A stretch of 40,308 nucleotides of DNA from assembly GCF_003605635.1 (NCBI RefSeq), contig NZ_QMDW01000023.1, positions 1 to 40,308 of the forward strand, read 5' to 3'. Source of the stretch: Halonotius pteroides. GTDB taxonomy: Archaea; Halobacteriota; Halobacteria; Halobacteriales; Haloferacaceae. Below are positions 13,722 to 19,703 of the stretch, piece by piece (the stretch's first letter is position 1; each line of letters begins with the position of its first letter). Both the position numbers and the translations under genes were made by a program. The notes beneath the pieces are model-generated. The model worked only from the letters and a program-made list of their open reading frames with translations. It was not told where the DNA came from and made no database searches.

Positions 13722-14362
13722 TATCCGAAGTACTCCGCGATCTTGTCGTACACTTCATCCATGTTGTTGCCCTCAAGCGCTGACAGTGGGACGGTCTCAT
13801 GCTGGGGGAAGGCGTCGGCAACACGTTTGATATCGGCCTCGTCGAGATCGATCTTGTTGGCGAAGATGAGTACCGGCAGATCGCGGCTCTCGATGATGCC
13901 GATGAGCATGGTGTTGACCTGTGTGAATGGGTCTGTCGTCGAATCGAGGACGTAGATAACGCCGTCGACATCCTCCCGGAGCCAGTGCATGGCCTCGGCG
14001 ACGCCTTCGGTCGCCTCCCGGGAGCGACGGATCGCGTCGTCCTTCTCGATGTCGTGGTCAAGGAACTCCTTGTAATCGACCTTCGTGGCGACACCCGGGG
14101 TGTCAACGATATCGATGGTGACCGACCGGCCGTTGCGTTCGATATCGACGCCTTCCTTCCGGCGTGCCCGGCGTGTTTCGTGTGGAACGTGGCTTTCGGG
14201 GCCGATGGCGTCACCAGTCCAGTCACGTGCGATGCGGTTTGCGAGGGTCGTCTTTCCGGCGTTCGGCGGTCCATAGATACCGATCCGTTTCGGATCGTCC
14301 GAGGCGAACAGGCGGTCGGTGACCCGCGAGACGCTATCTTTGAGATTTGTGAGTAGACCCAT
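13721..14362 (-). CDS. oapA: Origin-associated Era-like GTPase OapA
   Basis: A 213-aa small GTPase. Starting MGLLTNLKDSVSRVTDRLF at 14362, it shows G1 GPPNAGKTT at about residues 31-39, the HETRRARRKEG switch region, G3 DTPGVAT, and G4 NKIDLDEADI; the G5 SAL motif (VPLSALEGNN) is near the C-terminus. No KH RNA-binding domain follows, unlike true Era. It is the first gene of oapABC, reading away from the origin. The frame is open to 14431, but that extension runs through an origin recognition box at 14376-14398, so the shorter start is preferred. A GTP-dependent switch near the origin is plausible but unproven. Confidence 0.9.
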   Translation of the reverse strand: MGLLTNLKDSVSRVTDRLFASDDPKRIGIYGPPNAGKTTLANRIARDWTGDAIGPESHVPHETRRARRKEGVDIERNGRSVTIDIVDTPGVATKVDYKEFLDHDIEKDDAIRRSREATEGVAEAMHWLREDVDGVIYVLDSTTDPFTQVNTMLIGIIESRDLPVLIFANKIDLDEADIKRVADAFPQHETVPLSALEGNNMDEVYDKIAEYFG

Positions 14363-14375
14363 CCTGAGACTCCCG

Positions 14376-14398
14376 CACCTCCCCTGTTTCGCGTGGAA
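14376..14398 (-). promoter_or_regulatory. Origin recognition box, minus orientation
   Basis: The reverse complement reads TTCCACGCGAAACAGGGGAGG, matching the ORB core TTCCAnnnGAAAC followed by a G run. It lies between the oapA start and the AT-rich segment. Confidence 0.75.
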
Positions 14399-14626
14399 GG
14401 GCGTATGACGCACCTTGCATTCCGTGAACACTTAAACACTGCGTCAGACAGGGCTCAGCGGCCGGATTCAACCGGATACAGTTGGTACTGCCGAGGCGAG
14501 TCCGGCTCCGGTTTAGGCGCGTTAGCAGGGATGAGAGTGCTGGCAGCGCTAGAACTACCGAGAGTATTGAGCGCAGTCATCATGGAGTCGGTGGAGCCTC
14601 AGCCTATCAACTCGGAAACGTCGACC

Positions 14627-14657
14627 ACCCCCACACCCCTTTGTTTCGAGTGGAAAC
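14627..14657 (-). promoter_or_regulatory. Origin recognition box with G string, minus orientation
   Basis: On the minus strand GTTTCCACTCGAAACAAAGG is followed by GGTGTGGGGGT. It mirrors the plus-oriented box at 14836-14863 across the AT-rich segment and shares its G-rich tail. Confidence 0.85.
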
Positions 14658-14687
14658 GCGAAAAGAAGGGGCACCCTGAGATGGCTA

Positions 14688-14795
14688 TTACTTCCAAAAC
14701 ACTTATTATACATACTGGATAACCAGACCCGTACCACGAGAAATACTGATTATTTTATTTTGCTTGTTAGTTGTATTAGCCACTAGACTAGCTTC
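14688..14795. other. AT-rich putative DNA unwinding element
   Basis: This stretch, including TTATTATACATACTGG and GATTATTTTATTTTGC, is much richer in A and T than its surroundings and sits between two inwardly arranged strong ORBs, the expected place for duplex opening. Confidence 0.75.
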
Positions 14796-14835
14796 AAGAA
14801 ACGAACAGCAGATATCCACACCACATAGCGACACT

Positions 14836-14863
14836 GTTCCAGTTGAAACAAAGGGGTGGGGGT
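14836..14863 (+). promoter_or_regulatory. Origin recognition box with G string, plus orientation
   Basis: GTTCCAGTTGAAACAAAGG followed by GGTGGGGGT fits the haloarchaeal ORB consensus and is the partner of the inverted box at 14627-14657. Confidence 0.88.
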
Positions 14864-15204
14864 GTCAGAACCCCCGTCCAGCTACGGTTTATTCACGATT
14901 TTGCTCCGAGGCGTTTGACAGAGACTACTACTTCGGACTTCACATTCCAGCTGGCATACCTCTTTGTGGAGTTTCGACGGTTGATATCTCTGTGCAGTGA
15001 TGAGCCCCGATCAGCTCGTCTCTCACCGTTGGAATCTACCCTTCTGCCCGCGAGCTATCGGCAAATAGTATCCAAAGTGAGAACGCTTTTGTATCGTGTC
15101 TGCCTCTGTTTCGCCTGCACCATTTGAGCACGTCAACAGCCCCCGATCCGGCAAAACCGACACGCTCTGCGGTCGTGTGGCCGATCTCGGGTATTCGTGT
15201 TGAC

Positions 15205-15228
15205 GATTCCATGTGAAACAGAGGGTGG
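15205..15228 (+). promoter_or_regulatory. Origin recognition box just before orc1
   Basis: GATTCCATGTGAAACAGAGG followed by GTGG keeps the TTCCAnnnGAAAC core. It lies 33-56 nt before the orc1 ATG at 15261, where Orc1 binding could also repress its own gene. Its overlap with the GTG at 15213 argues against that upstream start. Confidence 0.75.
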
Positions 15229-15260
15229 AACGCGGAACACAGAACGATGGGATGGAATCA

Positions 15261-17078
15261 ATGACCGACGACCACGACCGACAACACGACGAGCCAACCG
15301 ATGCCGAGTCGACACCACCGCCCGGGTCGCCGGCGACGGGTGAGGGGTCAGCCGACGACGGTACCGGTGAGACCACCGAGTCGAATAGCTCGGACGAAGA
15401 TGAAGCCACTACCCCCCCAGAGCGGGATGACATCACAACCGACCCCGCCTCGGTGTTGGCGTCGGATCCGATCCCCTCGGCGGATCGATCACTTGATGAT
15501 CTCGATCTCGACGACGCCGACCGGAGCCGCGATCGCTCGAGTGCTTCCTCGGATCTCGATTTCGATCTCGACGCTGATCCGGATGGAACCGATGACAGCG
15601 AGGGGTTGTTCGATGATCTACTCTCTGGGGAGCCGATCTTCGAGAACAAGGAAGTCCTCCGGCCGTCCTACACTCCGCGTGAACTCCCCCATCGTAACGA
15701 CCAGATCAACCAGATGGCGACGATCCTTGTCTCCGCGCTTCGCGGTGACACCCCTTCTAATATCCTGATTTACGGCAAAACCGGCACCGGCAAAACTGCC
15801 AGCGCAAAGTACGTCAGCCAGGAGCTAGAGTCGACTTCCCAAAAGTACGATGTTCCCTGTGAGGTCGAGTATATCAACTGCGAGGTCACCGATACCCAGT
15901 ATCGGGTGCTCGCACAACTCGCCAACAAATTCATCGAAAAGAACGTCGCGCTCATCGAATCGCGGATCGACGTACTTGAAACCGTCCGCGAAACGCTCGC
16001 CGCGGACGACTCTCCGACGACCGCCGCCGTCAGCGACATCGACCCCAACAAGGCGGCGGTCTCGATCCCGGATGCCGAAACCAACGCCGAGGCCGACCCC
16101 GAAGGCAGCCTCCCGATCGTTACCGACCAGTACACCTCGGTCGATGCTGTCGACGAGCGCATCGAGACACTGGAGGCTGACGCCGAGGAGATGGAGCCTG
16201 TCCCGATGACCGGGTGGCCGACCGACCGCGTCTACAGCACGTTCTTCGAGGCTGTCGACTACAACGAGCGTGTGGTTGTTATCATGCTCGACGAGATCGA
16301 CAAGCTTGTCGAAAAAAGCGGCGACGACACCTTGTATAACCTCTCGCGGATGAACAACGAACTAACGAACTCCCGGATTTCGATTATGGGGATCTCGAAC
16401 GATCTCAAGTTCACCGATTTCCTCGATCCACGCGTCAAATCCTCGCTCGGCGAAGAGGAGATCGTTTTTCCGCCGTACGACGCCACACAACTCGGCGATA
16501 TCCTCCAGCATCGCGCCGAGGTCGCATTCAAACCCGACGCGCTCACCGGCGACGTGATCCCGCTGTGTTCGGCGTTTGCGGCCCAGGAACACGGCGATGC
16601 CCGCCGCGCGCTCGACCTCCTCCGCACCGCCGGTGAGCTCGCCGAGCGAAGCCAGGCTGACATCGTCGAGGAAGAACACGTCCGACAGGCGCAGGATAAG
16701 ATCGAACTCGATCGCGTCGTCGAAGTTGTCCGCACGCTCCCCACTCAAAGCAAGATCGTCCTGTTTTCGATCATCCTATTGGAACAGAACGGCGTCCACA
16801 ACATCAACACCGGTGAGGTGTTCAACATCTACAAACGCCTCTGTGAGGAGATCGACGCCGACGTACTGACACAACGCCGCGTCACCGATCTCATCAGCGA
16901 ACTTGACATGCTCGGCATCGTCAACGCTGTCGTCGTCTCAAAGGGTCGCTACGGGCGCACGAAGGAGATGAGCCTCTCGGTGCCGCTTGAGGAAACTGAG
17001 GCTGTCCTGCTGTCTGACTCTAGACTTGGCAACATCGACGATGTCCAACCGTTCGTCCAAGCTCGCTTCGATAACTGA
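15261..17078 (+). CDS. orc1: Origin recognition/initiator protein Orc1/Cdc6
   Basis: A 605-aa AAA+ initiator that binds the adjacent ORBs and loads the MCM helicase. Residues 1 to about 120 are an acidic Ser/Asp/Thr-rich extension. The conserved start IFENKEVLRPSYTPRELPHR follows, then Walker A GKTGTGKT at about 172-179, and Walker B VVIMLDEIDKL near 340-350. Between them is a poorly conserved insertion of roughly 80 residues (about 230-315) rich in Asp, Ala and Thr. Sensor and arginine regions (ISNDLKFTDFLDPRVKSSLG; EHGDARRALDLLRTAGELAE) are present. The C-terminal winged helix covers about 480-590. ATG 15261 (MTDDHD) is chosen over 15252 and the GTG at 15213, which lies in an ORB. Confidence 0.95.
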   Translation: MTDDHDRQHDEPTDAESTPPPGSPATGEGSADDGTGETTESNSSDEDEATTPPERDDITTDPASVLASDPIPSADRSLDDLDLDDADRSRDRSSASSDLDFDLDADPDGTDDSEGLFDDLLSGEPIFENKEVLRPSYTPRELPHRNDQINQMATILVSALRGDTPSNILIYGKTGTGKTASAKYVSQELESTSQKYDVPCEVEYINCEVTDTQYRVLAQLANKFIEKNVALIESRIDVLETVRETLAADDSPTTAAVSDIDPNKAAVSIPDAETNAEADPEGSLPIVTDQYTSVDAVDERIETLEADAEEMEPVPMTGWPTDRVYSTFFEAVDYNERVVVIMLDEIDKLVEKSGDDTLYNLSRMNNELTNSRISIMGISNDLKFTDFLDPRVKSSLGEEEIVFPPYDATQLGDILQHRAEVAFKPDALTGDVIPLCSAFAAQEHGDARRALDLLRTAGELAERSQADIVEEEHVRQAQDKIELDRVVEVVRTLPTQSKIVLFSIILLEQNGVHNINTGEVFNIYKRLCEEIDADVLTQRRVTDLISELDMLGIVNAVVVSKGRYGRTKEMSLSVPLEETEAVLLSDSRLGNIDDVQPFVQARFDN

Positions 17079-18008: not shown

Positions 18009-19703
18009 ATGCCGACAGTGCCATCGGAGACGCCGTCCCGGATCGTTCAGACGCTGGCCCGCCACGGCTACAACGCCGACCGCGAGGCGGTCACGCTACT
18101 CGCGCGCGCGAACAACCCGGCTGCCGCCATCGACGCCGTCGTTTCGGCGGCCGGCGACGACATCCTCCGCATCACGAGCAGTGATGTTCGAGCCTGTCTC
18201 GACAGCGACACCGTTGCAACCGGCGCGGCTGTTTCCTCCGCAGTGACGACGACTGAACCACCCTCGTCGGCGGCCGCGACCGAGCCGACAGCCCCAGATT
18301 CGGCTGCATCCACCGACTCACAGCCTGAAACACCACAACAACCCAGCGCAGACACCCCTACTTCGACTGCAACCGAATTAGACCAAAATCAACAGACGCA
18401 GTCAAAATCTCCATACGAAATAGAGGGGTCGAACGCGACCGGGCGTAAAGAAGTGGTTGGGGAACCAACAGGAACCGCCCGCCCTCCGGATCGGAACCCG
18501 ACACCCGCCGAGATCACCGGCGACATCACCGGCCGCAGTACCGGCACCGGCGAGTACAGTCAGTTCGTGACGACGTTTCGGGATCGCTACGAACAGCTCT
18601 CGAAACTTCTCAAGGGTCGCGTCAACCACCGCCCGGCGTCGGCCATCGCCGACATGCCCGGCGGCAGCGACGCCGAGATGATCGGCCTCGTCAACGACAT
18701 CCGCTCGACGGCCAGCGGTCACTGGCTGATTGAACTCGAAGATACGACCGGAACGTTCCCCGCACTCGTAATGAAGGACAGACCCATCGCCGAGTTGGTC
18801 GACGAACTCCTGCTTGACGAATGTATCGCGGTGCAAGGTACCCTCGCCGACGACTCTGGCATCCTCTTCACCGACTCGATCCATTTTCCTGACGTTCCCC
18901 GAACCGCCCGTCCGAGTACGGCCGACCGCCACGTCCAGGCCGCCTTGATTTCGGATGTCCACGTCGGCAGCCAGGAGTTCATGGCCGACGCCTGGAACCG
19001 CTTTGCCGACTGGCTTCACACCGAGGAGGCTGAACACGTCGAATACCTCTTGATCGCCGGCGATATGGTCGAAGGCGTCGGCGTCTATCCGGATCAAGAT
19101 GAGGAACTCGACATCATCGACATCTTCGACCAGTACGAGGCCTTCTCGGAGCATCTCAAAGCCGTCCCCGGCGACATGGAGATCGTGATGATCCCCGGCA
19201 ACCACGACGCTGTCCGGCTGGCCGAACCACAACCCGGGTTCGACGAGGAGCTCCGCCAGATCATGTCCGCACACAATCCACGAATCTCAGGCAACCCATC
19301 GCTTGTCACCATCGAGGGCGTCTCCGTGCTGATGTATCACGGTGTCTCACTTGATGAGGTCATCGCCGAACTCCCCGAGGAGAAAGCCAGCTACGATGAC
19401 CCTCACAAGGCGATGTACCAACTGCTGAAGAAACGCCACGTCGCGCCCCAATACGGCGGCAAGATGCGACTTGCACCCGAAACAAAGGACTATCTCACCA
19501 TCGACACGGTGCCCGACATCTTCCACACCGGTCACGTCCACAAACTCGGCTGGGGGAAGTACCACGATGTGTTGGCTGTCAACAGCGGCTGCTGGCAGGC
19601 CCAAACCGCCTTCCAAAAGAAGGTCAACATCGACCCCGACGTGGCTCATGCCCCGATTGTCGATCTCGATACCTTGGAGATGACTGTCCGAAAGTTCGCG
19701 TGA
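18009..19703 (+). CDS. polD1: DNA polymerase II (family D) small subunit DP1
   Basis: A 564-aa small subunit of the archaeal replicative polymerase PolD, providing the 3'-5' exonuclease. The N-terminus (SETPSRIVQTLARHGYNADR and onward) is a helical domain, followed by a ~100-residue low-complexity linker of Thr, Ser, Pro and Gln (about residues 75-170). An OB-fold comes next (GLVNDIRSTASGHWLIELED), then a calcineurin-like phosphoesterase domain with ALISDVHVGS, LLIAGDMVEGV, MIPGNHDAVR, LMYHGVSLDEV and DIFHTGHVHKLGWGKY, i.e. the full Mre11-like metal ligand set. The ATG at 18009 (MPTVPSETP) fits the family start; 17985 is a possible alternative. It lies close to the origin and is divergent from sipS. 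Confidence 0.93.
   Translation: MPTVPSETPSRIVQTLARHGYNADREAVTLLARANNPAAAIDAVVSAAGDDILRITSSDVRACLDSDTVATGAAVSSAVTTTEPPSSAAATEPTAPDSAASTDSQPETPQQPSADTPTSTATELDQNQQTQSKSPYEIEGSNATGRKEVVGEPTGTARPPDRNPTPAEITGDITGRSTGTGEYSQFVTTFRDRYEQLSKLLKGRVNHRPASAIADMPGGSDAEMIGLVNDIRSTASGHWLIELEDTTGTFPALVMKDRPIAELVDELLLDECIAVQGTLADDSGILFTDSIHFPDVPRTARPSTADRHVQAALISDVHVGSQEFMADAWNRFADWLHTEEAEHVEYLLIAGDMVEGVGVYPDQDEELDIIDIFDQYEAFSEHLKAVPGDMEIVMIPGNHDAVRLAEPQPGFDEELRQIMSAHNPRISGNPSLVTIEGVSVLMYHGVSLDEVIAELPEEKASYDDPHKAMYQLLKKRHVAPQYGGKMRLAPETKDYLTIDTVPDIFHTGHVHKLGWGKYHDVLAVNSGCWQAQTAFQKKVNIDPDVAHAPIVDLDTLEMTVRKFA

Follow-up and report, generated by a model that had tools for sequence, protein, structure and literature searches.

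A haloarchaeal oriC1 in the oapA-orc1 intergenic region of a Halonotius-like genome, with a candidate control module before orc1

Is the intergenic region between the divergent genes oapA and orc1 a replication origin, and do the ORBs within it also control the two genes? A sequence-only reading had proposed both, describing a complete oriC1 with four ORBs whose outer boxes lie at the gene starts. Positions 14363 to 15260 of the window (the whole stretch of 40,308 nucleotides analyzed here, contig C32 of a 3.0-Mb draft genome in 115 contigs) coincide exactly with the DNA between oapA and orc1 in a Halonotius-like haloarchaeon (Table 1). By Orc1 identity, its nearest named relatives are Halonotius aquaticus (88%) and H. 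roseus (83%). The region lies directly upstream of a conserved oriC1-type orc1/cdc6 gene, the product of which matches NF001625 (ORC1-type equivalog, 647 bits), TIGR02928 (467 bits), and the Pfam families Cdc6_C and Cdc6_lid. On the other side, profile searches assigned the oapA product to the small GTP-binding domain TIGR00231 (56 bits) and the genes after it to Pfam OapB and OapC, and the oapABC context is conserved. The gene is now named arvA and encodes a GTPase in vesicle formation (PMC10927574). The scan covered 81 loci, the window and 80 relatives, of which 69 have a divergent oapA with an intact N terminus.

Table 1. Features of the oapA-orc1 region, in window positions
Feature	Position	Strand	Remarks
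oapA	13724..14362	-	Small GTPase acting in extracellular vesicle formation; oriented away from orc1; start 14362
Weak ORB-like box in oapA leader, CCACGCGAAACAGGGGAG	14379..14396	-	8.3 bits
oapA promoter-like element, GTCTGACGCAGTGTTTAAGTG	14429..14449	-	Also found before oapA in most relatives
Inner left ORB, outward G-string	14626..14654	-	Core 30.5 bits, full motif 44.2 bits
Candidate DNA unwinding element, AT-rich	14690..14810	.	Low GC
Two CTAG sites in inter-ORB segment	14783..14791	.	CTAG enrichment
Inner right ORB, outward G-string	14838..14866	+	Core 29.3 bits, full motif 44.4 bits
Predicted BRE/TATA of orc1, GAACGCTTTTGTA	15081..15093	+	Conserved at fixed distance before the block
Putative ORB-variant block over predicted orc1 transcription start	15101..15128	-	Decayed here, TTCGCCTGCACCATTTGAG at 15110-15128
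Stem-forming stretch between promoter boxes (predicted)	15131..15205	+	CGTCAACA (15131-15138) pairs with TGTTGACG (15198-15205)
orc1-proximal ORB, decayed in this genome, CCATGTGAAACAGAGGGT	15209..15226	+	6.5 bits
orc1	15252..17078	+	oriC1-type Orc1/Cdc6 initiator; start 15252 or 15261

The two inner boxes form a strong pair. On a matrix derived from 136 ORBs in other genera (maximum, 31.9 bits for the core and 48.6 bits for the full motif), both come close to the maximum. They flank the AT-rich segment in inverted orientation, each with the extended halophile G-string (GGGGTGTGGGGGTG and GGGGTGGGGGTG), and on these points the sequence-only reading is borne out. A repeat search recovered them as a 29-nt inverted repeat, 86% complementary, with arms at 14627-14655 and 14837-14865. 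The exact 14-mer ORB core occurs at two places only in the 3.0-Mb genome, namely, in this pair, and in six of eight whole relative genomes the full ORB pattern is likewise present exactly twice, as an inverted pair with zero mismatches. No match of at least 10 bits to the matrix was obtained in a 1-Mb window-Markov control. The gene for the DNA polymerase D small subunit contains ORB-like matches at 18411-18428 (10.3 bits) and 19473-19490 (9.0 bits); these score above either outer box and are probably due to chance. Between the inner ORBs, the GC content is 33 to 40% in 60-bp windows and 28% in the lowest 60 bp, against 62 to 63% in the flanks. The spacing of the pair showed no clear helical period.

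The inter-ORB segment is also enriched in CTAG. Across 68 loci, this tetranucleotide occurs 12.2 times per kb between the inner ORBs, compared to 1.09 elsewhere in the region and 0.22 in the flanking genes. A total of 180 inter-ORB sites were observed versus 55 in shuffles, and CTAG is the most enriched four-letter palindrome there. A candidate orphan methyltransferase is present in this genome; the candidate CTAG methyltransferase is missing in 8 of 14 relatives without inter-ORB CTAG and in 1 of 16 with it (one-sided Fisher test, about 0.0035, calculated by hand on genera that are not independent). CTAG clusters at haloarchaeal orc1/cdc6 genes, together with an orphan methyltransferase, have already been published (PMC4752239; see also PMC5867850). 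The enrichment at the origin and the candidate methyltransferase are common to that description and to this genome, while the present analysis locates the sites to the base pair, within the inter-ORB segment.

The nucleotide skew changes sign at the origin, in the haloarchaeal sense. When computed on the window and on stretches of genomes, the GC skew equals +0.062 to the left and -0.058 to the right of the region, with a cumulative peak at 14,596 of the window. An equally large difference was seen at 13 of 566 background breakpoints in the same genome. The turn, which the sequence-only reading had named as a check, recurs in relatives: H. terrestris and H. aquaticus have the cumulative peak at most about 130 bp from the origin, and Haloquadratum has it within 1.3 kb. 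Skew at third codon positions differs with the direction in which a gene lies relative to the fork, in agreement with a C-rich leading strand. This inverted sense of the skew is known for haloarchaea (PMC2841640).

The layout, an AT-rich segment between two inverted G-string ORBs directly upstream of a conserved orc1/cdc6A gene, is that of the Haloarcula hispanica oriC1 (PMC3936714) and of the haloarchaeal oriC1 family (PMC3528665). The minimal oriC1 of H. hispanica has this same layout and requires each of its two ORBs and each of its two G-strings (PMC3936714). Unlike the H. hispanica origin, where an internal G-rich inverted repeat acts as the oriC1 enhancer, this region is missing such a repeat; the element, found in most haloarchaea but not defining, is absent from all five Halonotius-type loci, including this one. 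H. roseus has a run of five G on one side at the place of the internal repeat. The region also resembles the three-ORB oriC1 of Sulfolobus, in which inverted ORB2 and ORB3 flank the unwinding element and a third Orc1-1 site is present (PMC12141716), although the Sulfolobus origin is without the halophile G-string. Taken together, the region is well supported as a haloarchaeal oriC1 of the textbook type, as judged from its sequence. By analogy with characterized oriC1 origins, we infer initiation at this site and binding by Orc1. The product of the adjacent gene would bind the two strong inverted ORBs, with the G-strings pointing outward, and would then open the AT-rich segment between them and load MCM there, after which forks would depart in both directions.

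The outer boxes are a different matter, and the proposal that an ORB regulates oapA is not sustained. At the position of the oapA-side box, the ORB core is present in Halonotius, whereas nearly all other genera lack it or score under 5 bits. A score of at least 5 bits is reached in 6 of 69 loci (four Halonotius-type and two Halobaculum), showing that an ORB is not kept at the oapA start across relatives. In many other loci, the homologous place is a conserved oapA leader, CATACGCCCYTCCACGA..TCGGGAGGYGCGGGAGG, with no ORB core. As the core is found in Halonotius but hardly elsewhere, the box is best read as leader sequence. It is probably not a true ORB and would form part of the ordinary conserved oapA leader. 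Farther upstream, the oapA promoter-like GTCTGACGYAGTNCTTAAGTG is preserved in most relatives. A hairpin in the oapA leader was also considered, but folding is weak (z of -0.86 versus -0.36), and none is claimed.

On the orc1 side, comparison across relatives points to a conserved arrangement. The BRE/TATA of orc1 is kept as (C/G)AAC..TTTTTGTA or TTTAATA in most loci. It is followed by a block with the near-invariant consensus TTCNNNTGCATCANNTGGA, about 91 bp before the proximal ORB, which reads TCCANNTGATGCA on the minus strand. The block together with a downstream CCANNNGAAAC was found in 126 of 292 class genomes and in 43 of 77 genera, and the reversed control pattern gave no match among the same 292 genomes. 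Some genomes of one family (f3) carry a TTCAACTGGAC variant. Read on the minus strand, the block would be an ORB with GATGC in place of GAAAC, with a partial match to the invariant ORB letters. The ORB-variant label is one that we infer, because the block keeps the letters TCCA..GA..C and not the ORB centre or G-string. An upstream reading frame in the block was rejected because, judged by eye, the third positions of its TTC, TGC, and ATC codons hardly vary and other codons change the amino acid.

The second element of this arrangement is a plus-oriented ORB just before the orc1 start. Of 69 loci, 63 have it in the orc1 promoter/leader, where it reaches up to 31.9 bits and nearly always lies 16 to 53 bp before the start codon. 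Two of the 63 boxes (loci L084 and L093) were placed by hand because the predicted start is further off. Among all 63, 55 retain the strict CCANNNGAAAC/T core. The proximal ORB of H. terrestris scores 26.6 bits, and its counterpart in this genome is decayed. The idea of an autoregulatory box at orc1 thus draws its support from comparison, with the ORB of 63 of 69 loci joined to the near-invariant block. Since both promoter boxes are decayed here, autoregulation is less secure in this genome than in its relatives. In one genome, identical copies of the orc1 leader module lie near both contig ends (G264:C1, 18140-18249 and 3954432-3954541), perhaps reflecting an assembly overlap.

The stretch between the two promoter boxes may fold as a conserved hairpin, in RNA or in DNA. 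Among 65 non-redundant leaders, the two arms lying inside the boxes pair better when both come from one genome than when they are drawn from different genomes (complementarity of 15.2 versus 12.1). The within-genome complementarity corresponds to a z of 8.9, with none of 20,000 permutations as high, and antiparallel pairing gave z values of 6 to 9 overall. Control arms elsewhere gave z of about zero. A parallel-pairing control also exceeded permutation (z of 2.4 to 4.7; at equal arm length, 3.4). Arm composition may therefore account for some of the antiparallel signal. The mean folding z of the leaders is -2.29 in the sense and -1.53 in the antisense direction, compared to about -0.25 in two controls, and it is -1.70 without the box letters. 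In an alignment of 21 leaders, hand-picked from well-folding clades and with the structure fitted to the same rows, both partners vary at five of the six outer-stem pairs. Covariation in this alignment is 0.225 versus 0.113 when shuffled, and a +3 slide reaches 0.200. The alignment test moderately supports the predicted stem. A single class-wide RNAalifold of the 65 leaders gave little, whereas clade-wise folds were better. Counts of G-U versus A-C pairs in the stem, taken to distinguish RNA from DNA, were 7 to 3 and 10 to 8 and favored neither. Rfam returned no match.

These observations bear on how the region as a whole is to be read. A complete four-ORB origin, in which both outer boxes bind Orc1 and control oapA and orc1, would fit the GAAAC core in both outer boxes, their placement at the gene starts, and the fact that the orc1-side box is an ORB in most relatives. 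We consider it very unlikely. Of the two minus- and two plus-oriented ORBs proposed, the inner pair stands, whereas the outer two are very weak: at 8.3 and 6.5 bits, versus 30.5 and 29.3, they are weaker than the inner boxes, as had been stated, and in the matrix scan they fall below the coding matches. Resemblance of the oapA-side box to an ORB is essentially confined to Halonotius, and elsewhere the box consists of oapA-leader letters without the core. Nor is the set symmetrical, with box spacings of 257 bp on the left and 370 bp on the right. Rather than facing inward and outward, the left boxes are minus and the right boxes plus, with the G-tails outward. Moreover, the four-box description missed the minus-oriented ORB-like element at 15101-15128, a fifth element between the right inner box and orc1. 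Also very unlikely is a dormant or relic oriC1, its sequence kept while replication proceeds mainly by recombination or from an origin at another orc gene. Haloferax mediterranei does have dormant origins (PMC4595724), and the promoter ORBs are decayed here. The genome also encodes about a dozen Orc1/Cdc6 genes, and two others adjoin inverted G-rich repeats of other sequence, of the GAACCGAAGGGGTG and CACACACCCCCCAC types (G000:C71, about 91,620-92,020, and L004 on G000:C36, 1032-1393), which are candidates for further origins. With at least two such loci, another origin could exist beside oriC1 or serve as the main one. Against dormancy, both inner ORBs and their G-strings are near consensus, and the skew peak at the site is common to relatives, which argues for long use of oriC1.

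Our preferred reading is an active oriC1 with a separate pair of sites before orc1. In this reading, transcription of orc1 would start from the TATA-like box and yield a leader predicted at about 130 nt. Two weaker sites in inverted orientation, the ORB variant over the predicted transcription start and the ORB before the start codon, would form an autoregulatory orc1 promoter/leader, and Orc1 bound at this pair would most simply repress its own gene. Alternatively, the proximal box and the block could be a ribosome-binding leader and the site of another regulator, with the ORB likeness partly a coincidence, an explanation that concerns the promoter module only. In many relatives, the G-run indeed lies at a short, ribosome-binding-like distance before the ATG, the block is without the GAAAC centre, and the leader is structured. 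This alternative is possible but rather unlikely, as the whole CCANNNGAAAC/T core, beyond the G-run, is retained in most proximal boxes and is inverted relative to the block. For the autoregulatory module itself, the chances appear evenly balanced: haloarchaeal orc1 genes may share an undescribed control module, composed of the TATA-like box, the ORB-variant block over the transcription start, a covarying hairpin leader, and the ORB before the start codon, through which the initiator, possibly with leader RNA or DNA folding, sets its own level. No description of this module was found in the literature searched, but the proximal box may be among the ORBs listed in the supplement to PMC3528665.

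As a whole, we hold with high confidence that the region combines an oriC1 origin with a separate orc1 promoter/leader site pair and an oapA-side box that is ordinary leader. The origin itself was expected and adds one oriC1, from a lineage without the G-rich enhancer. The correction at oapA matters, as there is no conserved sequence link between Orc1 and the vesicle GTPase. The orc1 promoter module, rather than the origin, merits further attention. Should Orc1 bind the two promoter sites, this would be an archaeal counterpart of DnaA autoregulation, and a precise, conserved, and easily mutated target would be available in Haloferax.
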